Source of the DNA: Desulfobacca sp.
GTDB lineage: Bacteria > Desulfobacterota > Desulfobaccia > Desulfobaccales > Desulfobaccaceae
NCBI GenBank assembly: GCA_020725545.1
Contig: DYEV01000025.1
Span: forward strand, 1 to 64,000
Length of the DNA: 64,000 nucleotides
Direction of reading: 5' to 3'
The position numbers and the translations under genes are program-made. Positions 19,358-38,614 of the stretch are shown here, piece by piece; within the stretch, counting starts at the first letter, position 1, and every line of letters starts with the position of its first letter. The notes under the pieces are model-generated. The model was not told where the DNA came from and did no database searches. It was given only the letters and a program-made list of their open reading frames with translations.

Positions 19358-19388
19358 ATATTTTCACCTCCTTTGAACAATTTACTTG

Positions 19389-19417
19389 AATATAATATTC
19401 CGCAGTCTGCCTGTCAA
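19389..19417 (-). promoter_or_regulatory. Strong sigma-70 promoter of the His-rich peptide gene
   Basis: On the minus strand a perfect TTGACA (19412-19417) and TATATT (19389-19394) are exactly 17 bases apart, placing transcription start near 19382 and giving a short leader of about 25 bases. It is among the best promoter matches in the window. It overlaps the 5' end of the divergent ABC-like gene, so the two transcripts may interfere. Confidence 0.75.
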
Positions 19418-19433
19418 GCGGGGGAGACCTTTA

Positions 19434-20213
19434 TTGGCCGTGTTATCACGCCGTCCTGAAAACGCGCTGCGGCCGGCGGCCCGGTTTACCACCAGTCTGC
19501 TGTTGGCCAATGTGGTGCCGGGCATCGATTGGCAACCGGATCTAGGTCCCGTTTCCCTGGCCTTGAGGCTGACGGAGTGCTGCCTGCTGGAGGGCTTGGC
19601 CGTGCAGAGGGCTGACCTGTTGTTGCGGGCTGCGGCCACCCTGCTGCCGCCCCTGACCGGGCGTATTTTTCATTGGGGTGAGGATCTATTTGCCCTGCCC
19701 CGCCGCCAACTCCTGTCCTGGCGCCGTCATCTGGCCTTTGTCTCGCCGAAGCATGCCCTCCTCCCTCGTCTCACCCTTCAGGAAAACCTTACCCTCGCCC
19801 AGGTCCTGGCGACCAAACATCGGTCCCAGGATCTGATGCCACGGCAGGGCCGACTCCTGGAACAGCTCGGCCTCACCGCCCATCTCGCTCAGTATCCCAA
19901 AGAACTGCCACCCCGGCAGTATCAATTGGCCCTCTGGGCACGTGAATTGGTGAAAGAACCGCGCCTACTCCTGGGCGTCCTGGCCGGCCAGGAAGAGCCC
20001 TACGGAGCGCCGGCCCTGGCTCCGAACCTGCTGCCCCTCCTCCAGGAATATCATCGGCACGGCCAGGGTGCTATCCTCTTGGCCGGCCCCTGGCTGGCCG
20101 TGGCCCATGCGCTGGCCGACCGCCGGTTCGTGCTCCGGGATTCCCGTTGGCACGAAGAACCCTTGCCCCAACACCACTGCCATCCCTTGGCTTCATATCT
20201 GAATGTCCTCTAA
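19434..20213 (+). CDS. Degenerate ABC-transporter ATPase-like protein without catalytic motifs
   Basis: About 259 aa from the chosen TTG (19434, behind GGGGGAG at 19420-19426); a GTG at 19440 or the open-frame limit at 19386 are alternatives. The sequence follows the ABC ATPase pattern: GRIFHWGEDLFALPRRQLLSWRRHLAFVSP, then RLTLQENLTLAQVLA, then a helical LLEQLGLTAHLAQYPKEL. The functional motifs are gone. The Walker A region reads GLAVQRADLLLR, the signature LSGGQ is replaced by LPPRQYQLALWARELV, and Walker B has no Asp-Glu pair (LLLGVLAGQEEP). ATP hydrolysis is therefore improbable, yet the frame is intact. It lies downstream of the CbiK-like gene, whose catalytic residues are lost too. Confidence 0.6.
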   Translation: MAVLSRRPENALRPAARFTTSLLLANVVPGIDWQPDLGPVSLALRLTECCLLEGLAVQRADLLLRAAATLLPPLTGRIFHWGEDLFALPRRQLLSWRRHLAFVSPKHALLPRLTLQENLTLAQVLATKHRSQDLMPRQGRLLEQLGLTAHLAQYPKELPPRQYQLALWARELVKEPRLLLGVLAGQEEPYGAPALAPNLLPLLQEYHRHGQGAILLAGPWLAVAHALADRRFVLRDSRWHEEPLPQHHCHPLASYLNVL

Positions 20214-20709: not shown

Positions 20710-20944
20710 ACGGCAGAGCGGCGAAACCCTGGAGGTATGAGCAGGGTCTGCGGTTTGCCTGTTATCCCCCGGCGATTTGTCTGGCCAGCAAAGGCTCATG
20801 TTGCATTAACCGGTAGCCATCTTGATCAGTTTCTTGTCCTGCCCGTTGTGCCGGGGCCGTCTGAGGATACCTCGGCACCGCAGCCAGTATGCTCAACCAG
20901 GTATTTCAGCAGGCGGACCATTGCCAGATCCCGGGAGGAAAACC

Positions 20945-21343
20945 ATGTCGGAAAATTTATTGGCTCAGGTAAGCACCCACCTCAGTTTTTTGGGCTATGA
21001 GGTCTCGTGCGATGATGAAGACCAGATCTATCGGGCCATACATCCCGTCCGCACGAATTTTTTATTTTGGAAATATCGGGGGGGTATTCTCCTCACGAGT
21101 TTCTACAAGTCCACTCGCACAGCTCAGACTGAGTATGCAGGATATCTCAACCAGATAAACACCCTTAACCAAGAGGCGGCAGTCTGCCGCTTTCTGGCCG
21201 ATAAGGAAAATGACCTGCGACTTGAGGCCTGGTTTCCCGGGAACTATGATAAGACGACGTTTGGGATCTTTATGGAATCCTGGCACGGTGATTCCGATCT
21301 TTTGAGAAGGCTTAGCCCGGATTTGGCAGATTTCCTGGATTAA
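20945..21343 (+). CDS. Conserved hypothetical protein, possibly YbjN-like
   Basis: A 132-aa soluble acidic protein without signal peptide. The start is the ATG at 20945, six bases after GGGAGG (20933-20938); the frame is open further upstream but without a comparable site. The order of beta strands and helices (FLGYEVSCDDEDQIYRAIHP, then ILLTSFYKS, then LNQINTLNQEAAVCRF) recalls YbjN/secretion-chaperone-like folds, which act as small protein-binding modules. This is a weak resemblance. It lies 154 bases before the VWA gene and could be an accessory of that cluster. Confidence 0.6.
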   Translation: MSENLLAQVSTHLSFLGYEVSCDDEDQIYRAIHPVRTNFLFWKYRGGILLTSFYKSTRTAQTEYAGYLNQINTLNQEAAVCRFLADKENDLRLEAWFPGNYDKTTFGIFMESWHGDSDLLRRLSPDLADFLD

Positions 21344-21497: not shown

Positions 21498-23546
21498 TTG
21501 CTGCGTATCCCTATGAGCATCCTTTGGTTGGTATGCTTGCTGAGCGCTTATCTCGGCGTCGCCCCGGCCGCGGCCCGCACCGTCGTGGTAGTGTACGATG
21601 ATTCGGGGAGCATGACCCAGCCGCCGGCGAAATGGTGGCAGGCCAACTATGCCATGCAGACCCTGACGGCCTTGTTGACGCCACAGGATAGGCTCAGCGT
21701 CGTCTTCATGAGCCGGCCTGGCCTAGCCGTCCCCTGGCCAGACCAACGAGCCGCCCTGCAAGAACTGCAAAACCAAATCCCGCCCAACGCGCAAACCCCT
21801 TTTCAGGCTCTGGAGACCGCCATGCGGGCCGTGGAACAGAGTCGGGACGAGGACCGTTGGCTCATCGTCATTACCGACGGAGGCTTTAACGAGTATCCGC
21901 CGGAGGATAGGCTGCGGGAACGCATTCAGCAATTTGCCGGAGCTACCGGCGCCAAGACCGTCTTTCTGCTTATCGGTACCGAGGTTAGTGACAGCTTGCC
22001 GGTCTTTTGGGATGCGATTGCCTCGGCTCAGACCTTTCGGGCCGTCAGTTCTCGGGATATCACGCCCCGCATGCAGGAGATCGCCGCTCTGGTCAACGGC
22101 CGGCCCCTTGCGCCGGGACAGTTGCGTCTGGCGGCACAAGGGAACCAGATCAGCCTGGCCACAGAAATGCCTCTCAAACGCCTGACCATTTTCCAACAGG
22201 AAGACCAGCAGCGGGACCTGGCGGTTGTCCGGCAGGCCGAAGTGGGGGCGGCGCCCCTGCAGACCAACGGTCTGGTGGCGAAGATGCCCCAGCGGGCGCA
22301 GCTCAGCAAATTTGCCGGCATTACCCATATTACCCAGAAAATTCCTAACCAGGTGATCCCGGAAGCCACTCTGACCATTACCTTGGAGCGGCCGGTGGCC
22401 CTGTCCCGTTTGACCTTTTTCCCCGAAGTCGCGGCCCGCTTTGAGCTGCATCTGGAGAAGGAGGACGGCTCACCGCTGTCACCCACCTCGCAGAATATCT
22501 ATCAAGTCTGCGTCGGCAGGAAAATCCGTTTGGTGGCCCGACTCCTGGACCCCCACAGTCAACAACCCTTAAGTGTCACCATCAAACATCCCGAAAAGAT
22601 TACGGTGACGGCCAATTACCAGAAAAAAGACTATGCCCTGACCCTGGAACCCCAGAAGCGGTTTTTTACCGCGCTCATCCCGGTGCAGATGGGACAGGAG
22701 CCCTTGGGGGCCACGGCCTCGTTCCCTGGTTATTTTTATTTTAAATCCAAAGTTTTCATCATTGATGGTATTCCTTGCTATCGGAAGCTCGCCCTGGAAC
22801 CAACGGCTCCCTGGTCGGCCAAGGTAACGGAGTTAGCTCAGGCGCCGGCCCTGCGGCTGTTGCCCACGGCGGATGGTCAACCGGTGTCACCCGAGGAATT
22901 TCGGAACTGGACCCTGACCATCCGCAAAGCGCCGCCGGTTCAGCTGCAGATCAAGAAACAGGGGGACCATTGGCTGGTGCGGCCCCAAGGCAACCGCTGG
23001 TCCTGCTGTTTCACCCCCACCGGCAGCATGCCCCTGGAAGTGGAGATCAGCTCCTCTCACCCCGGCGAAACTATCCGGGAAACCCTGGAATTTACTATTG
23101 AGAACGTGCATTGGTGGACAAAATGTGGTTGGCTCATCATTCTTCTGCTTGCCACCCTTATCTTCCTCTGGTGGCTCATCGGCATCATCCGCAAGCGGCG
23201 CTTCTGCCGGGGCAGCGCCATCGTCTATCACTGGGCCACCCGGACCCAGCAGGGGCGACCTTATACTTACGCCCTGCCCACCTCTTTCTGGCAACGGTGG
23301 CTGGTGCCCTATCGGGCGGAACGACGGCTGGTGGAAGGCATCTGTTTCATCGCGGGCCAGAGATGCAGCTATATTTATGTGGCCAAAGAGTCTCTGACGG
23401 ACCAGATGAGCATTGACGGGCAGCCGGTCATCGACCCAGCCCATCAGGAACGATCGGGCAGAGATAAACGCTTGGATAATAATTCGAGGCTGGCGGTGCA
23501 CCATGACTTGCGGGATGAATATTATCAGTATTCGTCGGGTAATTAG
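21498..23546 (+). CDS. Membrane-anchored von Willebrand factor A (VWA) domain protein
   Basis: A 682-aa protein with an N-terminal signal peptide, then a VWA domain directly after it. The MIDAS motif DDSGSM is at residues 34-39 and the strand WLIVITDGGFNEYP contributes the distal Asp. A beta-rich middle (about 200-540) follows, with a membrane helix at about 545-567 and a basic cytoplasmic tail of about 110 residues. The VWA domain should bind a partner through a divalent metal outside the cell membrane. TTG 21498 is spaced five bases from AGGGAGG; ATG 21513 is an alternative. It is the first of four contiguous genes, 17 bases before the tubulin-like gene, and probably the receptor or anchor of that complex. 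Confidence 0.85.
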   Translation: MLRIPMSILWLVCLLSAYLGVAPAAARTVVVVYDDSGSMTQPPAKWWQANYAMQTLTALLTPQDRLSVVFMSRPGLAVPWPDQRAALQELQNQIPPNAQTPFQALETAMRAVEQSRDEDRWLIVITDGGFNEYPPEDRLRERIQQFAGATGAKTVFLLIGTEVSDSLPVFWDAIASAQTFRAVSSRDITPRMQEIAALVNGRPLAPGQLRLAAQGNQISLATEMPLKRLTIFQQEDQQRDLAVVRQAEVGAAPLQTNGLVAKMPQRAQLSKFAGITHITQKIPNQVIPEATLTITLERPVALSRLTFFPEVAARFELHLEKEDGSPLSPTSQNIYQVCVGRKIRLVARLLDPHSQQPLSVTIKHPEKITVTANYQKKDYALTLEPQKRFFTALIPVQMGQEPLGATASFPGYFYFKSKVFIIDGIPCYRKLALEPTAPWSAKVTELAQAPALRLLPTADGQPVSPEEFRNWTLTIRKAPPVQLQIKKQGDHWLVRPQGNRWSCCFTPTGSMPLEVEISSSHPGETIRETLEFTIENVHWWTKCGWLIILLLATLIFLWWLIGIIRKRRFCRGSAIVYHWATRTQQGRPYTYALPTSFWQRWLVPYRAERRLVEGICFIAGQRCSYIYVAKESLTDQMSIDGQPVIDPAHQERSGRDKRLDNNSRLAVHHDLRDEYYQYSSGN

Positions 23547-23563
23547 CAGAAAGGAGAAGAACA

Positions 23564-26500
23564 ATGCCTAACGGCGCCTCGGTCACAACCACCCCCACCA
23601 TCCTCATCGGTCTGGGCGGCATTGGTTCCCAGGTGGTGGATCAGGTCTATGGCATGCTGCCTCTGGAGGAGCGGGGCCGGGTGGTCGTTCATGCCTTTGA
23701 CACCAATGTTAATGATATTCAAAGATTAGAGCATTTAAGGGGCAAGGTGACCCAGACCAGCACCGATCTCACCGTGGGTCAATACCTCCATCGGGCTGGC
23801 GAGGCGGTGTATGAGTGGTTTCCCAGGGCCTCCCCGGAGCTGCAGCGGAAAACCTTGACCGAGGGCGCCGGCCAGATCCGGCTGGTCTCCCGCCTGGCCT
23901 ATCGCAGTGCCATTGAAGCCGGCAAATTGGAAGGGCTCAGACAACAGATCACCCATCTTTTTCAGGTCCGGCCCGATGACACCACGTACAGTCCCCGGGT
24001 CATGATCGTGAGTTCCTTGGCCGGTGGCACCGGGTCCGGCATCTTCCTCCAGGTGGCCATGTATCTCCGCTGGCTGCTGGAGACTATTCTGGGCCGCCAG
24101 AATATTTATGTCCGGGGCGCCTTTCTCCTGCCCGATGTTCTGATTCAGACCCAATGTCTGCGGGATGCGGGCGAGCACGCCAATGTCCGGACCAACGGCT
24201 ATGCCTGTCTCAAGGAGTTGGATGCCATCGTCGCCAATGCCCGGGCCCAGGGACAGGGCAGTGTAACCATTGATCTGGAATTCCGCCCTTACCAACAAGA
24301 TACCTATGGACGGCCCAACGTCGCCATTTTGCCCAACATGCTGCCTTATGATTTTTCTTTTCTGTTCGATTTTGAGAATGTGAGTGGCCATAATCTGAAA
24401 TTTTTAGCCAATTATCAGCGGCAGATGGCTAAAGCCATTTATCTGCAGCTCTTCAGCCCCATGGCCGGCCCCAGTTTTTCCCAAGAAGATAATAATATTC
24501 TCAAATTAATTGCTACGGCCGGTCGCAGCCGCTATTGCGGCGCCGGCGTCAGCACCCTCTGCTACCCCTATCATGACCTCCTGACCTATCTGTCCCTTTG
24601 TTGGCTCACCGAGACCGTGGGCGACCAGTGGTTGCGTTTGGATAGCGATTACTTGCAGGAATTGCAGCAATATGAGAGAGATCTGTACGCCGGCGTCAAC
24701 CGGGACAGACCCAAGCTCGATGAACGTTATGTGTCCCTTCTCCAGAATTATGGCGAGGCCGATACGGCCCAGCCTTTCTTCAAGTTGGCTTATCGCTCCT
24801 GTCACCTGCTGGATAAGCTAAACCGGCCGGTGGCGGCCAAAGCCGAGCGGTTCCTGCAGGCACTGATGGATTTGATCGGGAGGACCGTCAATAACGACCA
24901 GGAGCTCTCCCTGGCCGAAATAAACTGCAGCCTGGATGAAGGCAAGGTCAAAATCAGGGAACAGGCGGCCCGGGAGGTGGAACGGCAGGAAGATGCCTTG
25001 GAAACCCTGAAACAGCGGGTCTTGGCCAAGGTGCAGGAGCACAAGGTCTTTATCGTCAACCAAGCCCTCTGGTACGACTGCGATGTCTCTGGCCATATGA
25101 TGGGAAATGACCACCAGCTCAATACCTGGCTGCTCGGCCGCGACGAGCCTCTCCAGCCGGTGGCGGTGCGCGCCGTCCTTTACCAGATCCATAGCCTTCT
25201 GCAGAAAGAGATCACCACCCTGGCGGAGGCCAATAAGAAGACTTTGGAAGCCATCCGGCGTTACGCCCACGTGTACGATCTGGAAGAAACCGAAGAGATT
25301 ACGGAAACCGCCAGTGACCGCATCCGCCGGGCGCTTCAGCAACCCATGCTGCGGCGCCTCTGGAACAACCAATTTAAGGAAGTTATCGAGGAATATATCG
25401 AGAAGTCTACCCACCAATTCCGCAACCTGGTGGACTATAAAACGAAAAAGCTTAAAGAGTTGGTCTATGCCGAAGTGGCCAGACAGATTCGCCTGATGCT
25501 GGACGGTTGGGAACTGTTTTTCCGCAACCTGCGAGAAACCCACCTGGAGCTCTTGGCCCAGAGAAATTTGGCGGCCATCGAACATGATGGGACGGCCGAC
25601 CCGACCCAGATCTTCGTGCTGGCCAGCGCCGACCGGAAAAAGCAGTTATGGGAGGAGCTGCGGCCTCAGGTGGTGGGCGAAACCCTGCCCACTGATCTCT
25701 GCCGAGAAATCTACCTGGGACAATTTGCCTTCTTCTGCCAACAGCACCACCACCGGCGCGAGGCCATGGGCGCCCTCCACACCACGCGGTTTTTCCAGGA
25801 GAGGATTCTGCCCTGGTGCCAGAGAAAGCTGCAAGCCAGCCAGGATTTGAATCTGAGCATTTTCCGGGCCCTGCAAAAAGAAGCTGCACTGGCCGGGTTC
25901 ACCGACGAAGCCTGCCAGCAGTATGTCACCGAGAAAATAAAGGGCCTGCTGCCATTGGCCCAACCCTTTACCCCCCGTTTCTCAGAGGCCAGGGAATTGC
26001 TCTATTGGGGGATTAACCCGACCAGCGCCACCGCCCTGACCCAACAGGATAAACAGGAGCTTTTTGGCACCCAGGGGATTTATCATGAGGCTTTTTCTCC
26101 TTACGAAATTATCTGTTACCGGTCCCACTACGGTCTGAAGGCCGAGGACTTCCCCAAATTTTCGGCCGGCGACCCCGGCCACGGCATGCCCGTCGGGGTC
26201 TATTTCCAGGCCTATAGAGATCGCATCCGGAGGATGGAGCAGTTAAGGGAAGAACAACAAGGGGACAGAACGGTCACGCCCCACCTGGATAAACGCTGGC
26301 ACCTGCCGGCCTACCTGCCCGATCTGAATGAACGGCAGATTCAGGCCGATCAAGAAAAGATCGACCGGGCTCTGATCCTGGGGGTGATTTATGATCTCCT
26401 GCGAGTAGTCAAGGAGGATCAAAGAGAGGTCTGGGTCCATACCGGGCCAGGGGGTATCCGGTTTATCCAGGTGGCGGGCCAGGAGGTCCCAGGACACCTT

Positions 26501-26941
26501 TATCGTCTCCACGAAGCCCTGGCGCACAATCCCGGTGTTGTGGATGCCGTCCTGGAACAGGCCGAGCAAAGAAAAAATGAGGACATTAACAGAGAACCCC
26601 GCGATATTGCCCAACATCGCTTTGCTCGGGGCTGTCTCCGGGAAGGGCATAATATTTTGGAACCGGTGTTGAGCTATCCGGACGCAGCTCCCAGCGATGC
26701 CACCTTGAGCGAGAAAAGTGCCCGCTTATTGTCCCGGCTGCTGGAGGAAATTAATCAATATTTTCTGGCCTGTCATGGGAGGCAGAGGCATATTGCCGGG
26801 AGTCAGGCGGCAGCTTTGATTGAAAATTTGCGCAAGGAGTCGTCCACTTACTCGGCCAGGGCCGCGGGGGCCGGTGCTGACGCGAGCTTCATCCAATGGC
26901 AGACCATCATTGACAACAAGATTGCCGAGCTTACAAGATAA
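23564..26941 (+). CDS. Tubulin/FtsZ-superfamily protein (Tubulin_2/FtsZl-like), 1125 aa
   Basis: The N-terminal 400 residues carry the tubulin-type GTPase landmarks: ILIGLGGIGSQVVDQV at about 13-28 (first nucleotide loop) and the glycine-rich tubulin signature SSLAGGTGSGIF at about 150-161. A segment NVRTNGYACLKELD near 209-222 stands where the T5/H6 region is expected. A long C-terminal extension of about 700 residues is mostly helical, with coiled-coil stretches. This architecture corresponds to the divergent FtsZ-like families proposed to act in membrane remodelling, not to cell-division FtsZ. The ATG follows AAAGGAGAAGAAC. It is encoded between a VWA membrane protein and two further membrane proteins. 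Polymerisation is inferred, not shown. Confidence 0.85.
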   Translation: MPNGASVTTTPTILIGLGGIGSQVVDQVYGMLPLEERGRVVVHAFDTNVNDIQRLEHLRGKVTQTSTDLTVGQYLHRAGEAVYEWFPRASPELQRKTLTEGAGQIRLVSRLAYRSAIEAGKLEGLRQQITHLFQVRPDDTTYSPRVMIVSSLAGGTGSGIFLQVAMYLRWLLETILGRQNIYVRGAFLLPDVLIQTQCLRDAGEHANVRTNGYACLKELDAIVANARAQGQGSVTIDLEFRPYQQDTYGRPNVAILPNMLPYDFSFLFDFENVSGHNLKFLANYQRQMAKAIYLQLFSPMAGPSFSQEDNNILKLIATAGRSRYCGAGVSTLCYPYHDLLTYLSLCWLTETVGDQWLRLDSDYLQELQQYERDLYAGVNRDRPKLDERYVSLLQNYGEADTAQPFFKLAYRSCHLLDKLNRPVAAKAERFLQALMDLIGRTVNNDQELSLAEINCSLDEGKVKIREQAAREVERQEDALETLKQRVLAKVQEHKVFIVNQALWYDCDVSGHMMGNDHQLNTWLLGRDEPLQPVAVRAVLYQIHSLLQKEITTLAEANKKTLEAIRRYAHVYDLEETEEITETASDRIRRALQQPMLRRLWNNQFKEVIEEYIEKSTHQFRNLVDYKTKKLKELVYAEVARQIRLMLDGWELFFRNLRETHLELLAQRNLAAIEHDGTADPTQIFVLASADRKKQLWEELRPQVVGETLPTDLCREIYLGQFAFFCQQHHHRREAMGALHTTRFFQERILPWCQRKLQASQDLNLSIFRALQKEAALAGFTDEACQQYVTEKIKGLLPLAQPFTPRFSEARELLYWGINPTSATALTQQDKQELFGTQGIYHEAFSPYEIICYRSHYGLKAEDFPKFSAGDPGHGMPVGVYFQAYRDRIRRMEQLREEQQGDRTVTPHLDKRWHLPAYLPDLNERQIQADQEKIDRALILGVIYDLLRVVKEDQREVWVHTGPGGIRFIQVAGQEVPGHLYRLHEALAHNPGVVDAVLEQAEQRKNEDINREPRDIAQHRFARGCLREGHNILEPVLSYPDAAPSDATLSEKSARLLSRLLEEINQYFLACHGRQRHIAGSQAAALIENLRKESSTYSARAAGAGADASFIQWQTIIDNKIAELTR

Positions 26942-26944
26942 GCT

Positions 26945-29089
26945 ATGTTGACCTTGGTTATATCGTTAACTCCGAAGGTCGCTGATCTGGGGTTGGCTGC
27001 GCCTTTTCTCTACCCCCTGCTGGCCAGCGGTCAGGTACGCCTGGTTCCGGCAACCCTGCCCCTGGATCACATGGATGAGTTTATCCGTTTGGAAGTGCAG
27101 CATGGCCACGTGTCCCAGTGGCAGCTCTTTTTTCTCCTGCATCAGGATGACCAGATCACCAGCCCGGAGGAAGGCAGCCTCACCGCCACCCTCTGGCAGC
27201 TGCAGCGGCAGGTCCTGCAGCCTTTGGCCGAGCACGGCCTGCATCCCCGGCAGGTTTGGCTCGGCGTCATGGATGAAGTGCAGCGGCTGGCCGAAGACGC
27301 TCCAGAACCACGCCAGCCGCTCGCTTGGCAGCGCCGGCACCTGGACGCCACGGGTCTGGTGACCACTGCAGACTTTCCCTATCTTTTCACCCGCGCCGAC
27401 ATGGAGGCAATGCGAAAGGCATGGGGGCAGCCCTTTTCTTTGGCCGCCTACCAGACGGACAGAGGCCTGGCCGGTCTGCCGCCTGAAGAAGAGCAAGAGG
27501 TGCGGCAACGGCTGAAGACCTTGCGCCAGCAAGCCCAGGAAATCATCACAAGGAAACTCAACAACGTACCCCCGGCATCCGGGCCAGCAGCAACGCCCTT
27601 TACTGAGAAAGGCATTCTCCAGACTATTCAGGAAGAGTACGAAGGATTTCTCAAAGATCTGGAGATCTCCCCAAATATCAATTGGCTGGGCACTTGGGAA
27701 GCACCGGACGCATTGCCTCGTCTCATCGCCCGGCATTTAAGCTTTGCAGCCGTCAACCATAACGTGGTCCTGGTCTTTTGCCGGGAGGTTGGCGGGGCCC
27801 CTTTTCAGCGCCTCCTCCTGCGATTGGTGTATGGCATCATGACCGCGGCCACCCAGCCCGAGAACTTTTTCAACCAGGATGGCAAAATTTTGAACCTGCA
27901 GCTGGAGTGGGACCAGGAGGCCTGCCAGCAGCTGCTGGCCATCCACCAAGCGGTGTTGAAGGGAGGCCAAGCCCAAGTAAAGGCAACATTAAACGCCGCT
28001 GTCGCCGTTGCCTGTGAGGAACCTGATGAGACGGCCTGCGTCTGCCGGGAGGTGCTGCCCACGGTTCGCCTGCCCAAGATTACCTTCCCGTGGCTGCGGC
28101 AGGCCAACGATACCGTTAGGTGGCAGCAATGGCTGAGAGATATGGGAGAAAAGGTGGCCGAGCAGACCACCTCGGCTGACCGTCGGCTGCGAGATTGCCG
28201 GCGGGATCTGAAGCCCCCGCAAGCCGGGATGGCCGAGGCTAACCTCGAACAACTGCAGGATTTTATCGCCGCCAAACAAGGGGAACTGGAAACTGCCCGC
28301 CTGGCCTTGCTCCGGCCCGAAGCGTTTGCCTGCCGCCCGCCCTCGGCTTTTAGCGTGAGCGAGGCTGAGCAGGGCGCGCTTTTAGAGCTCATCAACCAGC
28401 GGCCCCATGGCTGGTTGTTGGTCAAGGGTCTATTGGGGGCAACGCTGCTGGCCGGCTTGCCGCTAGGTCTTTATGCCCTAAGCTCTGGGGGGAGGGATGA
28501 ATATTTGCGCTTGGGGGAATTTCTCGGCCTGCTCCTCCTACTCACCGGCTTGGGGGCGGCCGCGGCGCTCTGGCGCCTCCGGCGCCGTTTGGCAACCCTG
28601 ATCGGCCAGATACACCAGGCGGCCGAGGCCCAGCTTGCGGCCATTGCTCAACATTTCGCTAATGCCAAGGAATACCTGCAGAAATTCTGCCGCTGCCAGG
28701 CCCTCCAGCAGCTGCTGGGGCAGGCCCAGGCCCAGGCCGCGGAACTGGACCGCCGGCTCCGGCTGAGTCGCTACCATGAGCGGCTGCTCGAGCAACACCG
28801 TCAAAACCTGGCCACCTTGGCACAAATTTTGGGGATTGCTCTTCCGGCCCCACCGGCCCAGCTCGATTTCGCCAGCGAGGTCCGCGTCGAGGTAACCCTC
28901 CCTGAGGAACGCAATGTTGTTTATTACCCGACTTGGACGCCCGAGAGGATTGGCCAAGTTGAGATTCCTCTGGTTATCGGCTCCCAACAAATCTTGGTCC
29001 GCCAGCCGTGGTTGCGTGGCTTAAAAAAATTGGTCTTTGAAGATGGCACCGATGTTTATCTGGAGCCCAGACGTCGCCTATGGACGTAA
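26945..29089 (+). CDS. Uncharacterised membrane protein with two TM helices and coiled coils
   Basis: A 714-aa protein that starts three bases after the tubulin-like stop. No known domain was recognised. The N-terminal 480 residues are predicted soluble, with helical Gln/Glu/Arg-rich stretches near 180-200 and 395-460. Two adjacent membrane helices lie at about 488-508 and 522-544, separated by a short charged loop. A coiled-coil region (about 545-640, alanine/glutamine-rich) and a small C-terminal beta-rich domain follow. The topology suggests both large portions face the cytoplasm, where they could contact the tubulin-like polymer. It overlaps the next gene by 10 bases, so translation is coupled. 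Confidence 0.8.
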   Translation: MLTLVISLTPKVADLGLAAPFLYPLLASGQVRLVPATLPLDHMDEFIRLEVQHGHVSQWQLFFLLHQDDQITSPEEGSLTATLWQLQRQVLQPLAEHGLHPRQVWLGVMDEVQRLAEDAPEPRQPLAWQRRHLDATGLVTTADFPYLFTRADMEAMRKAWGQPFSLAAYQTDRGLAGLPPEEEQEVRQRLKTLRQQAQEIITRKLNNVPPASGPAATPFTEKGILQTIQEEYEGFLKDLEISPNINWLGTWEAPDALPRLIARHLSFAAVNHNVVLVFCREVGGAPFQRLLLRLVYGIMTAATQPENFFNQDGKILNLQLEWDQEACQQLLAIHQAVLKGGQAQVKATLNAAVAVACEEPDETACVCREVLPTVRLPKITFPWLRQANDTVRWQQWLRDMGEKVAEQTTSADRRLRDCRRDLKPPQAGMAEANLEQLQDFIAAKQGELETARLALLRPEAFACRPPSAFSVSEAEQGALLELINQRPHGWLLVKGLLGATLLAGLPLGLYALSSGGRDEYLRLGEFLGLLLLLTGLGAAAALWRLRRRLATLIGQIHQAAEAQLAAIAQHFANAKEYLQKFCRCQALQQLLGQAQAQAAELDRRLRLSRYHERLLEQHRQNLATLAQILGIALPAPPAQLDFASEVRVEVTLPEERNVVYYPTWTPERIGQVEIPLVIGSQQILVRQPWLRGLKKLVFEDGTDVYLEPRRRLWT

Positions 29090-32000
29090 AACTCTATAGC
29101 TCTTGGCTGCTGACTTTTGCCGTCCTGGTCGTCCTGCTCTGGCGGGCTAATCTTCCCCGCCGGCAACGATATCGCCAGCATTGGCTGCCGGCTGCGGCGG
29201 CAGGCTATATATTGGTTGCGATCTGTTGGTATCACGACCTCTGGGAGCCGGCGGTGCAGCTGCTGGTCGCAATCCTGCACCAGTGGGGTCTAGCCTGGCT
29301 GCCCCTGAGCGGGGCTTTTCCCTTGGTTTTTAATGTTGCTGTCCTGCTGCTCTTTTTGCTGTGGAAAAGTCTGGCCTTGGGTTTACAAACGCTCTTTTCC
29401 CGGCTGCACATTCTCTTGAGCAGGAAGAAACAAGATACGGGCACAGCGGTGGACCCAGGCGCTGAACCCGCCCTACCCCGCTGGTCCTGGGCCTATGAAT
29501 GGCAGCGGCAGCGGGGTGTGCTCCTGCGCCAGGAATGGGTTTTTCCGGGCATGGTCCTCCAGGCTCTGGCATGGTTCTTGTTTCTGCTGCTGGCGGTCTG
29601 TCTGGTCCAGATCATCCGCCCCCTGCCTTTCCCTCTCCCGCAATTCCCAGCCCTGTCGCTGCTGCTGGTCTTGGAAATGGCCTGGTATCTGGGCGGTCTC
29701 AGACCCTGGGAGCAGCCGGGTCAGATCACCGGTACGGATGTGAGCAGCCAACGGCTGGCAGATTATCAGGCTTTGTGGCAGGAGTATCAAGAGGTCTGGC
29801 CGGACCGGTTCTTGGCGGCCTGCCAGCTGGCCAACCGTCAGCCTGAATCTCCGGCTTACCCTCCAGCCCCCCAGGCCACAGCGTCCGGCCTGGAACAGGA
29901 AATTGCCGCGGTCTGCCAGACCCTGCGGGAACAGGGGTTCCCCCTGGCCACCATGCACCAAAGCATTATTGAGCAACTCTGGCGGGGCTACGATCTTATC
30001 ATCAGCGAAGCCTGGTATGATGAGCTGGCTCCCTTGCTCCTGGCTTATTGGCAGCACCTCTGGCTGCAAGGAGGCCGGGTGGCTGTGCTTGCCGAAACCG
30101 AAGAACAACGGCGGGAGCTGATCTCCTGGCTGAACCAGTGTCTGGCCGGCGCCCCAGCCTATCTTCATTGGCGCACGGCAGCATCATATCAGGATTGTCT
30201 CACGTCCTCCAGCCACCCTGATATTCTCGTGGCCACGGTGGCGGATCTGCACACCCCGACGATTTGCCACGATTTTCACCAGGCTCAGGTCCAGGCCGTT
30301 CTCATCATCCCGGCCAACCGGACTTTAGGGCAGCATCTCGGGACAGTCCAGGCCTTTTTGGCCCGTCTCCACGAATTCCTATCGCGGCGCCTGCAATATG
30401 TCATCTTCAGCCCCGATCGGTATGGCCTGGAATCAGCCCTGCGGCGCAATATTTGTCTGGATCCGGACAGCCGGGAACGCAAGCTCTCTCCTGCGGCCGC
30501 CCACAAAGTCTTTGCCATTCTCTGGCAGGCGGAGGGGAAAGCGTGGCAAAAAGCGCTCCTTCCCGTGGAGATCTCAACGTATCTGGGAGCGGAGCCAATA
30601 TTGGCTACCTTGGCTTGGCGGCAGGACATTCAGGATATTCTCCTGCTCCAGCCAGAATCCTTGCCGCTGATCGAATTTCTCCAGGAAATTGATAATCATC
30701 TGGCGATCCTTAATAAGGGTCCCCGTCTTTTCGGGAAATTAACCGGGACCGCTTTTCAGGTCCTGCAAAGGCTGGCGGCTGCCTGGCTGTGCCAACCCCT
30801 GCCTCAGGGCGTCTTCGCCATCCGTGATGCGGAATATAACCTGGCGACGGCCCTGGGACGCTGGCAAACCCGGGCGACCCATCTGGCTTTGCTGCTCATC
30901 GTCTCACCCCCGTATTTGCTGCGGGACTACCTGGCGCAAAACGCTGCCTACTTTCTGACAGCAGCCCCGCTGGCGCTGGCACCCCGCATCATGAAAAGCC
31001 GGTTTGCCGTGGCTTTTACCCTGCTGCAACGCCTCCTGGCCGTCGAACTCCGGGACGACGATATCCTCACGGAGCTGCGGGAGATTTATCCCCAGACCAA
31101 AAATGTCCCGGATCAACTGAACCAGCTTTTTGAGGAGATTTTTGCCATTAATCCGAACCGGTTGTCCCTGCTGCAGCGCCGTCGGCACCACCGGTTTGAT
31201 ACCGCCGCCGCCCGGTTTTACGAAGAGATCACCTGGCGTTTGGACGCCCGCATCCTGGAACAACCGGGGCTGGCCTTCCTGGACCGCTATATCATCAGAG
31301 ACAGTAATCACAATAAACTGGGGGGCATCAGCGCCGACCACCTCCAGCAGACCTATCTGCCGGCCCAAATCCACACCCTGAACGGCCGGCCCTATGCCAT
31401 CATCCGCTCTGACCCGGCCACCAAATTGGTCCATGTGGAACATTGTCCCAACCTGAAAGGCGAGGGTACCTATCGGCCGGATATCCGCATTGCCCTGGAA
31501 ACAGAACATGCCTTGTTTTATGGCGGCCATACCCGGGAACGGGAACGGGGCCCTTGGCAAATCCGATTGGACCTGCGGGAAGGTGATTTCATCATCCAAC
31601 GGCTGGGGTATTTCTTTTTTCCCCAGGGGATCGATCTACGCCCTGCTCAGTTTCATTATGAAGCCGTCAGCCCGGTAGTGGCTCCCCCCCGCGCCTACCG
31701 CTATGGTCGCCTTTTGACCATAGAACTATCTGGGCAAGATAAAGACGTGTCAGCCAACGCGGCCAAAATTGCCTTCACTCTGGCGACCCTGCTCAATGAA
31801 ACCTTTTTGACACTGTTCCCGGAAACCCATCGGTTTCTTCACGCTTCCACCAGTCTGCCCGACAATTTTTTCAGCAATAAAGACCTGGCCAGACTCTTCC
31901 CCACTCTCAGCGTCAGAGAAGAAGCCGTGGCTGACCGGCCTCCGACACAATCCTCCCCTGCCCCTGTCATACGTCTGGTGCTAGTGGAGGATTCCCAGGT

Positions 32001-32949
32001 GGACCTGGGTCTGGTCCAATGCTTGTTCGATGATTGGCAGTATGTCTTCTTGGTCCTGCTGGACTATCTGACCTGGCTCCTGGAAGAAGAAGGACCGCCG
32101 ACTTCGGAAGGCTGGCGTTTAGCTGATCTGGATAAACAGCGATTCCTGAAGTACGGGTTTGATACTTTTCCCGAAGAATTCGACCTGGCTGGCACTCTCC
32201 ATCTTCTCCGGCAGCTGGAACCCTTTGAGGCGACGACACCCTGCTGCCAACACCGACGGGACTTTTATGCCAAGGGGGGCGCAGCGCAGGGCGCGTGCAG
32301 CTCCACTGAGGCGCACCGCTGTGATTTCTGCGGCCGGCCCCTCTCAGCCAGTGAACTGGAGCGTCTCCAGGACGGCCGGGAGCGGTGCCCTGCCTGCAAG
32401 GCCAGCGCCATTGATACGGTGGCCGTGCTGACCAGGGTCTTTGAAGAAGGCCGAGATTTTTTAGTGCGTTTCCTGGGAGTCAGCCTCCGTCGCAACCTGC
32501 AGGTTGCCTTCATCGATGCCCACACTCTCCACCGGGCAGCAGGCTCCTCGTTTCTGCCGACCCATGAACATGACCCCCGCACCGTCGGCCTGGCCCTCAA
32601 AGAAGGCGACGTCTTCACAATTATCATTGAAAATGGCCAGCCCTACCACCTCACCCTGGCTACCATCGTCCACGAATTGACCCACATCTGGCAGTTTGAC
32701 AACCTCAATATCGAGCAGCTGACCCAAGAGCACGACGGGTTATTGGTGGAAGGACTGGCTGTCTGGGCGGAATTGACCTGCCTGGCCCAGAAAAATCTCG
32801 CTCCCGAATATCGCCAACAGTATCTGGAACGAGACGATAACTATGGCCAGGGCTATCGCCTGGTACTGGAGTTTCTCCAACAGTACGGACAGAGAGACAA
32901 CCCCTTTTCCCTGCTCCGGAATCTGTATCCAGCGTCGCCTGCGATCTAA
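29080..32949 (+). CDS. Giant multi-pass membrane protein with zinc ribbon and C-terminal HExxH metallopeptidase domain
   Basis: A 1289-aa protein. The first 220 residues hold about five to six membrane helices. The region at about 270-500 has a Rossmann or helicase-like rhythm (GGRVAVLAETEEQRRELISWL, then DILVATVADL) but no Walker motifs. A cysteine-rich module near 1080-1106 (CDFC and CPAC) looks like a treble-clef or zinc-ribbon fold. The C-terminus contains HELTH at 1198-1202 and EGLAVW near 1224, the zinc ligands and catalytic Glu of gluzincin peptidases. It closes the four-gene VWA-tubulin-like cassette. A cytoplasmic protease fused to membrane helices suggests processing of a partner. 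Overall function unknown. Confidence 0.8.
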   Translation: MDVKLYSSWLLTFAVLVVLLWRANLPRRQRYRQHWLPAAAAGYILVAICWYHDLWEPAVQLLVAILHQWGLAWLPLSGAFPLVFNVAVLLLFLLWKSLALGLQTLFSRLHILLSRKKQDTGTAVDPGAEPALPRWSWAYEWQRQRGVLLRQEWVFPGMVLQALAWFLFLLLAVCLVQIIRPLPFPLPQFPALSLLLVLEMAWYLGGLRPWEQPGQITGTDVSSQRLADYQALWQEYQEVWPDRFLAACQLANRQPESPAYPPAPQATASGLEQEIAAVCQTLREQGFPLATMHQSIIEQLWRGYDLIISEAWYDELAPLLLAYWQHLWLQGGRVAVLAETEEQRRELISWLNQCLAGAPAYLHWRTAASYQDCLTSSSHPDILVATVADLHTPTICHDFHQAQVQAVLIIPANRTLGQHLGTVQAFLARLHEFLSRRLQYVIFSPDRYGLESALRRNICLDPDSRERKLSPAAAHKVFAILWQAEGKAWQKALLPVEISTYLGAEPILATLAWRQDIQDILLLQPESLPLIEFLQEIDNHLAILNKGPRLFGKLTGTAFQVLQRLAAAWLCQPLPQGVFAIRDAEYNLATALGRWQTRATHLALLLIVSPPYLLRDYLAQNAAYFLTAAPLALAPRIMKSRFAVAFTLLQRLLAVELRDDDILTELREIYPQTKNVPDQLNQLFEEIFAINPNRLSLLQRRRHHRFDTAAARFYEEITWRLDARILEQPGLAFLDRYIIRDSNHNKLGGISADHLQQTYLPAQIHTLNGRPYAIIRSDPATKLVHVEHCPNLKGEGTYRPDIRIALETEHALFYGGHTRERERGPWQIRLDLREGDFIIQRLGYFFFPQGIDLRPAQFHYEAVSPVVAPPRAYRYGRLLTIELSGQDKDVSANAAKIAFTLATLLNETFLTLFPETHRFLHASTSLPDNFFSNKDLARLFPTLSVREEAVADRPPTQSSPAPVIRLVLVEDSQVDLGLVQCLFDDWQYVFLVLLDYLTWLLEEEGPPTSEGWRLADLDKQRFLKYGFDTFPEEFDLAGTLHLLRQLEPFEATTPCCQHRRDFYAKGGAAQGACSSTEAHRCDFCGRPLSASELERLQDGRERCPACKASAIDTVAVLTRVFEEGRDFLVRFLGVSLRRNLQVAFIDAHTLHRAAGSSFLPTHEHDPRTVGLALKEGDVFTIIIENGQPYHLTLATIVHELTHIWQFDNLNIEQLTQEHDGLLVEGLAVWAELTCLAQKNLAPEYRQQYLERDDNYGQGYRLVLEFLQQYGQRDNPFSLLRNLYPASPAI

Positions 32950-34860: not shown

Positions 34861-37509
34861 TTAATCCCCTCCATAGCGGTTGAAGAACCAGGTTTTCGCC
34901 CAGTGGGTTAAGATACCGTAACTGATCAGAAAAAGCGCGATCCAGGCCCAATAGCTGGCCGGCAAGGGAACCAGCCTCAAAGCCGCGGCGAATGGTGAAT
35001 AGGGCAGCCAGGCGCCAATGCCCATAATGATCAAGGTGGTCATCATCATGTAGCCGGACGCCCGGCTGCCGAAAAAAGGCGTGCGTCTGGTCCGGATGAT
35101 ATGGACGATGAGCGTTTGGGTCAGCAGCGATTCCACGAACCAGCCCGTCTGAAAGAGTTGCGCCCAGGCCTCCTGTTGCCCGGGGGTAGTTGCAGGATCG
35201 AGGTAGGCGCGACAATTAAAAAAGAACCACATTAAAGCAAAAGTCGCGTAATCGAAAAGCGAGCTGATGGGTCCAATAAAAACCATGAACCGCTTGATAT
35301 TGTCAATGTTCCATTTGAGGGGCTGGGCCACCTGTTCTTCATCAACCTTATCTGTAGGTATCCCGGTCTGGGAGAAATCGTACAGCAGGTTATTGGTAAG
35401 GACCTGGATCGGCTGCATGGGCAGAAAGGGTAACAGATAGCTGGCGCCCACGACGCTGAACATATTGCCGAAATTAGAGCTGGCCCCCATGCGGATGTAT
35501 TTGACGATATTGGCAAAAACGCGCCGGCCTTCCGTGATCCCTTCCTCCAGGACCAGCAGGCTTTTTTCCAGCAGGACGATGTCCGCGGATTCCTTGGCCA
35601 CATCCACGCCTGAATCCACCGAGATGCCCACATCAGCCTCCTTCAGGGCCGGGGTGTCGTTGATACCATCGCCCAGGAATCCGACCACATGGCCGTTACG
35701 CCGCAAATCCCGAACAATCTCTTCCTTCTGTGACGGCGTCAGTTTGACGAAAACATTGTTCTCCTCCAGCGCTTGGGAAAACTGCTCCGGGGAGAGCCGG
35801 GCCAGATCGGCACCCGTCAGCATTCCGATCACCGTTAGCCCCACGTCTTTGCAAACCTTCTCGGTTACCAGGCCGTTATCGCCGGTCAGCACTTTGACCT
35901 GGACACCAGCCCGGGCCAGAAGCTCCAAGGCTTCATCGGCCATATCCTTGGGCGGGTCGAAGAAAGCAATATAGCCGAGTAAGACGAGTTGAGATTCATC
36001 CTGGACGGTGAACGTGGTCTTTTCCTGGGGAAACTCTCGATAGGCAATACCCAGGACACGGAAACCGGCACGGTTTAGTTTTTCAACCTCCTCAAAAAGA
36101 TTGCCGCGCAGCATATCGACCAAAGGATACACTTCATCGTCGATCTGATAGCGACTGCAACAGGCATAAATCTCCTCCACCGCTCCCTTGCAGATGAGGA
36201 CATGATCGCCCTCATACTCCACGACCACTGACATGCGGCGGCGTTGGAAGTCGAAGGGCAGCTCATCCACAAGGCGACATTGTTGGGTATCCAGGTCGGA
36301 GTGTTCCAGCACGGCACGGTCAAGGAGATTGCGCAAGCCCGTCTGGAAATAGCTGTTGAGATAGGCATAATACAAGACCTCTTCGCTGGGGCGCCCAAGG
36401 ATATCCACATGCTGTTTCAAGACCACCCGATCCTGGGTCAGGGTCCCGGTCTTATCGGTACACAGGATGTCAACGGCTCCAAAGTTCTGGATGGCCTGCA
36501 AGCGCTTGACAATCACCTTCTTGTTGGCCATTGTTAGTGCCCCTTTGGCCAGATTGACGGTGATGATCATGGGCAGCATTTCTGGGGTCAGGCCCACCGA
36601 GATGGCAAGGCCGAACAAGATTGCTTCCAGCCAATCGCCTTTAGTCAGGCCCACGATTAAGAAGACGACACAGACCATCACCACCATGAACCGCATCATG
36701 AGCCAGACAAAGGAACGCACCCCCCGGTCGAAGTTCGTCTCCGGCCGTTTTTCCGTCAGACGTTCAGAAATGGCCCCAAACAGTGTCTGAACGCCGGTGT
36801 TGATGATCAGCCCCCGAGCCGTGCCGCTGGTGACCGAGGTGCCGAAGAAACAGGCGTTGGTGAGCTCCAGGGGCGAGGCCGCAGCAGAGCCGGCATTCCC
36901 CGCCGACTTCTCCACGGGCATGGCTTCGCCGGTTAGGGCCGATTCACTGACGAAGAAATCTTTGGCCGCGATCAGCCGGAGATCGGCCGGGATGATGGAA
37001 CCGGCCTGGAGAAGCACGATGTCGCCGGGAACAATTTCGGATATCCGCACCTCGGACTCTTCCCCCTCCCGCAGCACAAAAGTATGGGATTGGACCCGTT
37101 TGCCGAGGCTTTCCACCGCCAGACTGGAGCGGCGGTCAAGGATATAGGACAGTCCCACACTGAGCAGGACCATGGCGCTGACGATGACCGCAGCCTTCAG
37201 CTCACCGATGACCACCGACACCACGGAGATGACCAGAAGTTGGATCACCAACGGACTTCGCAATCGTTGCCACATGTCGGCCCAGAAACCCAGACGCTTA
37301 AAACGGGAGAGCTCGTTGGGGCCAAACTCGTCCAGACGTCGAGCCACTTCCTTGTGACTTAACCCTTGCAGCGTCGTCTGCAGAGCGAGCAATGCCTCCT
37401 GGAGAGGGACAGTGCAGAGTTGCACCAATCGCTGCTCGTGTTCGGGTTCCGCCCGCTGGCCAGCAGATAAAGAGCGGTTCACACCAAGGTTGAGCCGGAG
37501 CGTTTTCAT
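34861..37509 (-). CDS. mgtA: Magnesium-translocating P-type ATPase (MgtA/MgtB)
   Basis: Imports Mg2+ across the inner membrane using ATP. The 882-aa protein has the P-type phosphorylation motif DKTGTLTQD, the actuator motif LTGEAMPV, the hinge VGFLGDGINDTPALKEADVGISV, and about ten membrane helices including a long C-terminal bundle. Length and motifs fit the P3B (MgtA) class; the N-terminal LSHKEVARRLDEFGPNELS is the usual cation-ATPase N-terminal domain. It lies downstream of mgtC and upstream of an EIIA-like gene. The operon leader predicts control by Mg2+. Confidence 0.94.
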   Translation of the reverse strand: MKTLRLNLGVNRSLSAGQRAEPEHEQRLVQLCTVPLQEALLALQTTLQGLSHKEVARRLDEFGPNELSRFKRLGFWADMWQRLRSPLVIQLLVISVVSVVIGELKAAVIVSAMVLLSVGLSYILDRRSSLAVESLGKRVQSHTFVLREGEESEVRISEIVPGDIVLLQAGSIIPADLRLIAAKDFFVSESALTGEAMPVEKSAGNAGSAAASPLELTNACFFGTSVTSGTARGLIINTGVQTLFGAISERLTEKRPETNFDRGVRSFVWLMMRFMVVMVCVVFLIVGLTKGDWLEAILFGLAISVGLTPEMLPMIITVNLAKGALTMANKKVIVKRLQAIQNFGAVDILCTDKTGTLTQDRVVLKQHVDILGRPSEEVLYYAYLNSYFQTGLRNLLDRAVLEHSDLDTQQCRLVDELPFDFQRRRMSVVVEYEGDHVLICKGAVEEIYACCSRYQIDDEVYPLVDMLRGNLFEEVEKLNRAGFRVLGIAYREFPQEKTTFTVQDESQLVLLGYIAFFDPPKDMADEALELLARAGVQVKVLTGDNGLVTEKVCKDVGLTVIGMLTGADLARLSPEQFSQALEENNVFVKLTPSQKEEIVRDLRRNGHVVGFLGDGINDTPALKEADVGISVDSGVDVAKESADIVLLEKSLLVLEEGITEGRRVFANIVKYIRMGASSNFGNMFSVVGASYLLPFLPMQPIQVLTNNLLYDFSQTGIPTDKVDEEQVAQPLKWNIDNIKRFMVFIGPISSLFDYATFALMWFFFNCRAYLDPATTPGQQEAWAQLFQTGWFVESLLTQTLIVHIIRTRRTPFFGSRASGYMMMTTLIIMGIGAWLPYSPFAAALRLVPLPASYWAWIALFLISYGILTHWAKTWFFNRYGGD

Positions 37510-37764
37510 GGCGTCATCCTTAATTTCCAGCTGCCCACATTTGGCGCCGCTTGAGACTATAGAGGGGGAGGTTGGTCTGCAAGTTCACCTCTGGTTCGGC
37601 CTTGATGACAAGACGGACGCGGCCGGAGGCGAACCGGCGGGCTAGATTCAGATTGCGCCCCGACAGTTCACTCCGCCAGGCTCAGACGTCGCGGTCATTG
37701 GTTTTCTGGTTTCTTGAGCAATCTTTGAGCTTTGTTTAGGCAATAAGACTGCCAGGTGAGTCGT

Positions 37765-37884
37765 TCATAACAGTTTCTCCCAGGGGTTGATCAACCAAGA
37801 TGATTCTTTTGGCCGTGATAAACTTCTGCCAACCGCTGATTTTTTCCCGTCGCCGGGGTGCTGGCGAGAATTGTTTGCGGACAT
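37765..37884 (-). CDS. Small ORF between mgtC and mgtA (39 aa)
   Basis: The peptide begins MSANNSRQHPGDGKKS and ends SSWLINPWEKLL. GGAGGGGAGGG lies five bases before the ATG, and the frame fills part of the 397-base gap between mgtC and mgtA. Its stop overlaps a second tiny frame, ATG at 37768 coding ten residues, as ATGA. Short translated leaders control mgtA in enterobacteria, so either frame could be regulatory. No domain recognised; expression is uncertain. Confidence 0.4.
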   Translation of the reverse strand: MSANNSRQHPGDGKKSAVGRSLSRPKESSWLINPWEKLL

Positions 37885-37906
37885 GAAAACCCTCCCCTCC
37901 TTAATT

Positions 37907-38614
37907 TCATGATTCTTCCTGCGTTTCTTGCCTGACGATTTCCCAACTGACGGCACTCACTCCGGCCTCCAGGCTGAGGCGGGACACGAGTTGCTCCAGA
38001 GCGGCTTGGTCATTGCCCCTGCCCGTCAAGCTGGCCAGCATCTCCACTTTGGCTGGATTATGGGTATCCTCGCTGCGCAGTGAAGAGATCTGCAGGGTAC
38101 TGGTATTCACGATTTGGAGAAGCAAGGCCCGCATTTTTTGTTCGTCTTCTGCCCGACAGATGGCCGTCAAAAGATAATGGGACTCAGGTTCCGGGACATC
38201 GGTCAGGTGCCGGATAAATTTTTGGGCAATCGGCCGCAGCACGATATTTACCATGAGCACAGCCATCGCGCCAACCAGGGCATGTATTAGGAATCCCGCC
38301 CCGGAAAGGGTGCCGACTGCCGCAGAACACCACAAAGTTGCCGCAGTATTCAGCCCTTTGATGGTCATGCCTTCACGAATGATGACCCCGCCTCCTAAAA
38401 AACCGATCCCTGACACTACCTGCGCGGCGATCCGGGTAGGGCTCGCATCTCCTGGCGTCATCAGACCCATGATGACAAATAAGGCAGAACCTACGGCAAC
38501 TAGGGTGTTCGTACGCATGCCCGCCATCCGCTGGCGCCATTGTCTTTCAAAACCGATGATACAGCCCAACAGAAGCGCCAAGGTGAGCCGAAAACAAAAC
38601 TCCAACCAGTTCAT
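37907..38614 (-). CDS. mgtC: MgtC/SapB-family membrane protein
   Basis: A 235-aa inner-membrane protein. The N-terminal half has four to five helices with the MgtC signature GCIIGFERQW near the start and GIGFLGGGVIIREG. The C-terminal 95 residues form the ACT-like cytoplasmic domain present in long MgtC proteins. MgtC is linked to growth in low Mg2+ and, in pathogens, to inhibition of the F1Fo ATPase. Its place in an operon with mgtA fits the Mg2+ role. The ATG at 38614 lies 46 bases after the preceding gene. Confidence 0.92.
   Translation of the reverse strand: MNWLEFCFRLTLALLLGCIIGFERQWRQRMAGMRTNTLVAVGSALFVIMGLMTPGDASPTRIAAQVVSGIGFLGGGVIIREGMTIKGLNTAATLWCSAAVGTLSGAGFLIHALVGAMAVLMVNIVLRPIAQKFIRHLTDVPEPESHYLLTAICRAEDEQKMRALLLQIVNTSTLQISSLRSEDTHNPAKVEMLASLTGRGNDQAALEQLVSRLSLEAGVSAVSWEIVRQETQEES

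Follow-up and report, generated by a model that had tools for sequence, protein, structure and literature searches.

We describe a cassette of four same-strand genes, here called VWA, TUB, MCC and GLU, in Desulfobacca sp. (assembly GCA_020725545.1, contig DYEV01000025.1, positions 1 to 64,000; this 64,000-nucleotide stretch is hereafter the window). The last of its products is predicted, from structural modelling and profile alignment, to be a membrane-anchored, ATPase-dead pseudo-helicase of the YprA fold. The four genes form a genuine unit that recurs across phyla, and the most likely role of that unit, tentatively held, is that of a membrane-bound conflict (anti-phage or anti-invader) machine. 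The open reading frame (ORF) coordinates (Table 1; lengths in amino acids, aa) confirm the compact layout described in an earlier annotation made from the DNA letters alone (the original prediction), with spacings of 17 bases between VWA and TUB and 3 bases between TUB and MCC, and a 10-base overlap of MCC with GLU; from this spacing alone we infer a single transcript of four genes. Translation of VWA probably begins at the ATG at 21513, which is more likely than the TTG at 21498.

Table 1. Coordinates in the window of the four cassette genes and of the principal features of GLU (TM, transmembrane)
Feature	Position	Strand	Basis
VWA gene, 682 aa	21498..23546	+	ORF list
TUB gene, Tubulin_2/FtsZl1 protein, 1125 aa	23564..26941	+	ORF list
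MCC gene, TM-hairpin coiled-coil protein, 714 aa	26945..29089	+	ORF list
GLU gene, predicted membrane-anchored YprA/MrfA-like pseudo-helicase with gluzincin motif, 1289 aa	29080..32949	+	ORF list
GLU N-terminal membrane region, about 5 TM helices, residues 1-194 (one further helix to ~208)	29080..29661	+	TM scan, positive-inside charges
GLU residues 306-316, LIISEAWYDEL, where active MrfA has its Walker A (ATPTASGKT), here lost	29995..30027	+	hhalign alignment, column listing
GLU zinc ribbon CDFC...CPAC (residues 1081-1106)	32320..32397	+	motif; kept in homologues
GLU gluzincin motif HELTH...EGLAVW (residues 1198-1229)	32671..32766	+	motif

A GTDB scan (one genome per species, anchored on the tubulin loop with a five-sequence alignment) yielded 77 loci; the gene-map counts that follow are conditional on this anchor and are given over assessable loci. 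In 48 of 62 loci the tubulin gene was preceded by a VWA gene; TUB was followed in 49 of 57 by a gene for a protein of 450-950 aa with 1-3 TM helices, and GLU came after that in 32 of 44. The complete ordered set of VWA, TUB, hairpin protein and GLU was present in 26 of 40, that is, the four genes co-occur across phyla, as the original prediction had suggested should be surveyed, and are not found mostly apart. The set is patchily distributed among Bacillota, Bacteroidota, Actinomycetota, Rhodothermota and Pseudomonadota (at least five phyla besides its own), and loci missing genes were mostly the more distant Myxococcota, gammaproteobacterial and acidobacterial ones. Because full-length homologues stand in the same order elsewhere, the arrangement is not a product of chance: full-length comparison of the window TUB with its counterparts in Rhodothermota and three Bacillaceae gives 38-44% identity, and GLU reaches 27-34% across most of the protein. 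When eight genomes were re-searched with GLU, the listed matches were confined to one contig stretch in each, and GLU did not turn up on its own in the genomes searched. Two variants were observed along the way: in many Clostridia cassettes (L071-L097) the tubulin gene is present as two differing copies in tandem, and an Ornithinibacillus cassette (L036:9143-19340) is apparently broken, with a short VWA, MCC and GLU each split and one in-frame TAA in GLU, which looks like decay or sequencing error.

GLU had been described as a membrane protease fusion with no recognised family; its membrane region and gluzincin motif stand, but the helicase fold had been missed. Its homologues mostly have 4-6 TM helices, and positive charges following TM1 and TM3 point to some five helices, with the core in the cytosol. 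A single AlphaFold2 model of residues 195-1289 (predicted local distance difference test (pLDDT) 85.5, predicted template modelling score 0.78) retrieved the DUF1998 helicase MrfA at Foldseek ranks 1-4 against the PDB (5.8e-23 (6znp) to 1.9e-11), followed by Hel308, Lhr and other superfamily 2 helicases, with a template modelling score of 0.66 by target length against 6zns. In an independent profile test, 31 GLU proteins were compared with 17 intact MrfA/YprA helicases from relatives, giving an hhalign match of 6.2e-6 over 449 columns, colinear beginning at the first RecA domain (controls: reversed MrfA, 0.0039 over 35 columns; FtsZ, 0.29; all hhalign E-values come from pairwise runs, with probabilities of 79-85%). 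The fourth genes of distant tubulin operons (Methylococcaceae, Acidobacteria, Leptospiraceae, Azospirillum) matched MrfA more extensively (2.7e-12, 629 columns), with the DUF1998 end included, where one of them (L100) retains a CDC...CERC signature. The YprA identity of GLU was thus assigned from structure and profile comparison alone. The active helicases carry (A/S)TPTASGKT and DEVH in 17 of 17 MrfA sequences, and at the aligned positions none of 35 GLU-homologue rows has the Walker A/P-loop or DEAH; since both motifs are missing in every row, GLU would be a homologue in fold and not a helicase. As a side observation, a second branch of tubulin operons (L094, L098-L101 and L110, from Methylococcaceae, Acidobacteria and Azospirillum) has up to four consecutive VWA genes, then a membrane, MrfA-like fourth gene without HExxH, and then another gene of ~780-900 aa.

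An MrfA fold at the membrane might also point to DNA handling there, such as uptake or segregation, in which GLU would tether DNA to the membrane; TubZ, another tubulin relative, moves plasmid DNA. Against this role, DNA-uptake, partition and mobility genes are not linked to the cassette and GLU lacks any ATPase motif, and we regard it as highly improbable.

The hydrolase end of GLU is more variable than its core. HELTH (residues 1198-1202) and EGLAVW (1224-1229), both present as the original prediction had claimed, correspond to HExxH and the downstream Glu, and the most similar full-length homologues retain both; Pfam matches to the C terminus are weak (8e-4) and stay below cut-off (BSP, 19.7 bits versus 23.8; DUF6782, 19.1 versus 27). 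Across complete GLU-type ORFs, HExxH is retained in 16 of 28, counting two Leucobacter loci in which zinc ribbon and zincin form a separate downstream gene. Five clostridial GLU-type proteins end instead in a transglutaminase-type domain (Transglut_core, 3.8e-8), and two Bacteroidota proteins (L049, L075) have only a degenerate His-Glu motif. A varying hydrolase on a constant chassis may resemble swappable effectors.

All topologies were assigned by hydropathy, which agrees with the earlier description of VWA as a signal-peptide protein with a single TM helix (C-terminal, residues 539-566) and predicts a cytosolic tail of ~115 aa behind it. The VWA domain itself (Pfam VWA_2, 8.4e-9) has an intact metal-ion-dependent adhesion site, DDSGS at residues 34-38. 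TUB, with zero TM helices, matches Pfam Tubulin_2 (PF13809) over residues 13-350 (2.4e-53; 182 bits against a cut-off of 27), and its T1 and T4 loops are intact, the previously noted GLGGIGSQ lying at 16-23 and AGGTGSG, which fits the signature GGTG(S/T)G, at 153-159. Profile comparison with FtsZ (hhalign 1.6e-5, probability only 79%; reversed control 0.019, MrfA control 0.49) bears out the tubulin-like assignment made earlier, and the presence in TUB of a GTPase domain of the tubulin/FtsZ superfamily is supported by these matches. In another member of the phylum, a single protein (L023:7326-11159) has the order TM, VWA, TM, Tubulin_2; this natural fusion places VWA outside and tubulin inside, as originally proposed and as the TM scan indicates, and so supports physical coupling of the two within the family. 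The fusion is one of three consecutive Tubulin_2 genes at that locus (L023:3277-14635, G097), another of which encodes two TM helices ahead of the Tubulin_2 domain.

For MCC, modelling predicts a cytosolic alpha/beta N-terminal domain, a TM hairpin (residues 491-545), a long coiled coil to ~628 and a small beta C-terminal domain. Here the earlier statement that no family could be recognised holds: MCC has no Pfam family, its single AlphaFold2 model (pLDDT 75.6) found nothing in the PDB at or below 1e-3, and PDB sequence searches with MCC and with GLU gave zero matches. Resemblances of MCC to alpha-pore toxins and dynein were rejected as chance fold matches of the coiled coil, and a PADLOC match to JetA/DUF3375 (0.012) was dismissed as coiled-coil noise. 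The MCC profile left the third genes of the Thermales and gammaproteobacterial loci unmatched. A same-phylum operon (L027:456-8942, G163) encodes a VWA protein, a tubulin, a 728-aa TM-hairpin protein and a 4-TM membrane protein of transglutaminase fold; it has the four-part anatomy of the window cassette, without sequence similarity in parts three and four.

The secreted VWA protein with its TM helix, the conserved zincin in those 16 GLU-type ORFs and the membrane transglutaminase-fold protein that ends the analogous L027 operon could each fit a role in envelope stress or surface-protein processing, in which VWA would bind envelope ligands, the cytosolic peptidase would free a regulator and tubulin would act as the switch. 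Transport or signalling was also proposed by a reviewer of the paper on FtsZl1-VWA operons (PMC2875224). No conserved regulator gene was found beside the cassette, however, and some lineages lose the zincin motif yet keep the remaining cassette; we consider this role unlikely.

Within its own phylum the cassette is essentially absent, which makes horizontal transfer likely. GLU was found in one of 59 relatives, that one being the window genome itself. Apart from the window genome's own copy, the only MCC match among 395 phylum genomes was a weak one (2.5e-4, 31% over residues 484-643, coiled coil included). Tubulin_2 occurs in 12 of 297 phylum genomes, and close VWA, MCC or GLU relatives were absent from the same-phylum Tubulin_2 neighbourhoods retrieved. 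In a phylogenetic tree, in which many same-phylum branches are very long, the window TUB groups with Rhodothermota (98%) and then Bacillaceae (99%), distant from same-phylum proteins; transfer between lineages explains this most simply. A similar patchiness was observed in the Sutcliffiella family, in which GLU is present in one of 18 genomes and absent from the other 17. In a same-genus genome, synteny to the left of the cassette extends as far as an ABC-like gene (19386-20213), and the cassette site is occupied by a different gene, for a 586-aa protein with a MutL-like N terminus. The idea of a recent foreign block recognisable by G+C was rejected, the composition of the cassette being in line with that of its surroundings, and no transfer RNA gene that could mark an integration site lies within the window.

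The conflict role is supported by the known defence role of YprA proteins, by CARF-HEPN and BrxL neighbours, by patchy transfer and by the swappable hydrolase. DISARM, Dpd, Druantia and ARMADA all have a YprA protein among their core components (PMC12458937). In Evansella and Sutcliffiella, a Csm6-like CARF-HEPN gene lies directly 3' of the cassette (Cas_Cas02710, 2e-14; PADLOC CARF_HEPN, 1e-110), and three Thermales plasmids (L111 Meiothermus, L112 Allomeiothermus, L113 Thermus) carry runs of VWA, tubulin-like, hypothetical and BrxL genes; two of these plasmids also have genes for DNA methyltransferases and helicases close by. The cassette is followed on its 3' side by a gene for a NACHT-type protein in Psychrobacter and for a GmrSD_C/HNH protein in Leucobacter.

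Several observations weigh against a conflict role. Many flanks elsewhere are housekeeping genes (GMP synthase, ABC transporter, amine oxidase), for which reason the function is only moderately supported, and in the window the surrounding genes belong to chemotaxis, Tat, P-type ATPases and molybdenum, not to defence. PADLOC models (BREX, DISARM, Druantia and others) matched none of the four proteins above noise, JetA being the best, and likewise none of their homologues; ten further downstream genes gave a sole, RmuC-type match. GLU relatives were absent from the plasmid records searched, and TUB relatives from viral contigs in a single-protein search. The Thermales third gene has neither TM helices nor profile similarity to MCC, and an extracytoplasmic VWA domain would be unusual for DNA-sensing defence.

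These points leave room for membrane remodelling, the published proposal for FtsZl1-VWA operons (PMC2875224), in which filaments of the tubulin-like protein, lying beneath the inner membrane and anchored there by the hairpin and VWA proteins, would bend or organise the membrane, the pseudo-helicase serving merely as a scaffold and the peptidase turning over components. All partners are membrane-associated and both TUB loops are intact, as such a role would have it. It leaves unexplained the YprA/MrfA fold, the patchy transfer, the CARF-HEPN and BrxL neighbours and the hydrolase swapping, and Makarova and Koonin did not find in the family the T6-H7 elements needed for FtsZ-type filaments (PMC2875224). 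We consider remodelling somewhat unlikely.

Returning to the membrane-bound conflict machine, a mechanism can be proposed that builds on what was observed: the genes as a unit that recurs, the identities of their domains, the loss of the ATPase motifs and the topology predicted for the products. The four proteins would form one inner-membrane complex, with the outside VWA domain tied to the cytosolic tubulin-like GTPase via its TM helix and tail and with MCC, both of whose large domains are predicted to be cytosolic, joining tubulin to the membrane. The motor-dead GLU would be a receptor or scaffold that may bind nucleic acid or protein and that keeps a latent zinc peptidase on the cytosolic side. 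A foreign ligand, captured by VWA on the outside or by the pseudo-helicase on the inside, would alter nucleoside triphosphate (NTP)-dependent tubulin assembly, presumably polymerisation, and the resulting tubulin clustering might activate the peptidase. It is possible, if doubtful, that the cassette represents a new class of prokaryotic immune system in which an extracytoplasmic VWA and a membrane tubulin-like NTPase assembly control a YprA pseudo-helicase, with a swappable peptidase (zincin or transglutaminase fold) as effector.

Parts of this arrangement have been described before. The tubulin-VWA link was reported in 2010 as FtsZl1-VWA operons (Makarova and Koonin, PMC2875224), which, like the cassette, combine a Tubulin_2 protein of >1000 aa with a neighbouring VWA gene whose product has a signal peptide and with membrane proteins that are uncharacterised; they differ in the GTPase, kinase and OmpA partners named there, which are absent here, and the main article text mentions no fixed unit of four genes and no pseudo-helicase of YprA/MrfA fold carrying a peptidase. 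Tubulin and vWA proteins were placed in GTPase-centred conflict systems in 2020 (Kaur et al., PMC7159879). Those GAP1-N2 systems likewise have tubulin proteins and extracellular vWA, there in Firmicutes and Actinobacteria, and a second tubulin gene occurs in some of the Firmicutes, a feature also seen in some of the clostridial loci described above. They are centred, however, on TRAFAC GTPases (GAP1), whereas no P-loop GTPase was found among the four genes and the adjacent genes scanned, and the main article mentions neither DUF1998 nor MrfA. With the YprA/MrfA helicases of DISARM, Dpd, Druantia and ARMADA (PMC12458937), GLU shares the overall fold and a profile match over the RecA domains, with a match at the DUF1998 end found in related operons; unlike them, it is predicted to be membrane-anchored, has lost the P-loop and DEAH, and has a peptidase fused rather than a nuclease. 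The main article of that 2025 YprA survey never uses the words tubulin, vWA, peptidase or transmembrane, and that of a 2026 BREX survey never uses tubulin. The Thermus and Meiothermus plasmid clusters resemble the cassette in their adjacent VWA and tubulin-like genes and differ in having BrxL as the fourth gene and a third gene unlike MCC. Other genes near these runs include those for a DUF1156 methyltransferase and Swt1 HEPN (L111), an Eco57I-type methylase and helicases (L112), and TROVE and RecQ (L113).

Within a literature whose subscription part was thinly covered, what appears to be new is that the "protease" is a membrane-anchored YprA/MrfA fold with all its ATPase motifs lost, joined to a zinc ribbon and, at the C terminus, to a peptidase that is swapped or separate elsewhere; as far as the literature found shows, GLU would be the first membrane-bound, protease-linked member of the YprA family. 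FtsZl1/Tubulin_2 operons have been without a function since 2010, and the pairing, in one large branch of them, with a motor-dead YprA/MrfA member gives the first concrete functional lead, in a testable unit of four genes with culturable Bacillaceae hosts. If the conflict role is true, a bacterial tubulin may serve immunity instead of division.

The variable region that holds the cassette is bordered by the ABC-ATPase-like protein gene (19386-20213), which is conserved in the genus; its N-terminal Walker A part may be missing, because the Pfam match begins at profile position 27. Between this gene and the cassette lies ORF 20822-21343, with a weakly Trm112p-like N terminus and a YbjN-like remainder, which was unmatched in six close relatives (in a search without a positive control) and was rejected as a fifth part of the cassette, because the other cassettes lack a homologue of it. 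A P-type cation ATPase gene followed by an MgtC-family gene (34861-38614) lies downstream of the cassette on the opposite strand.

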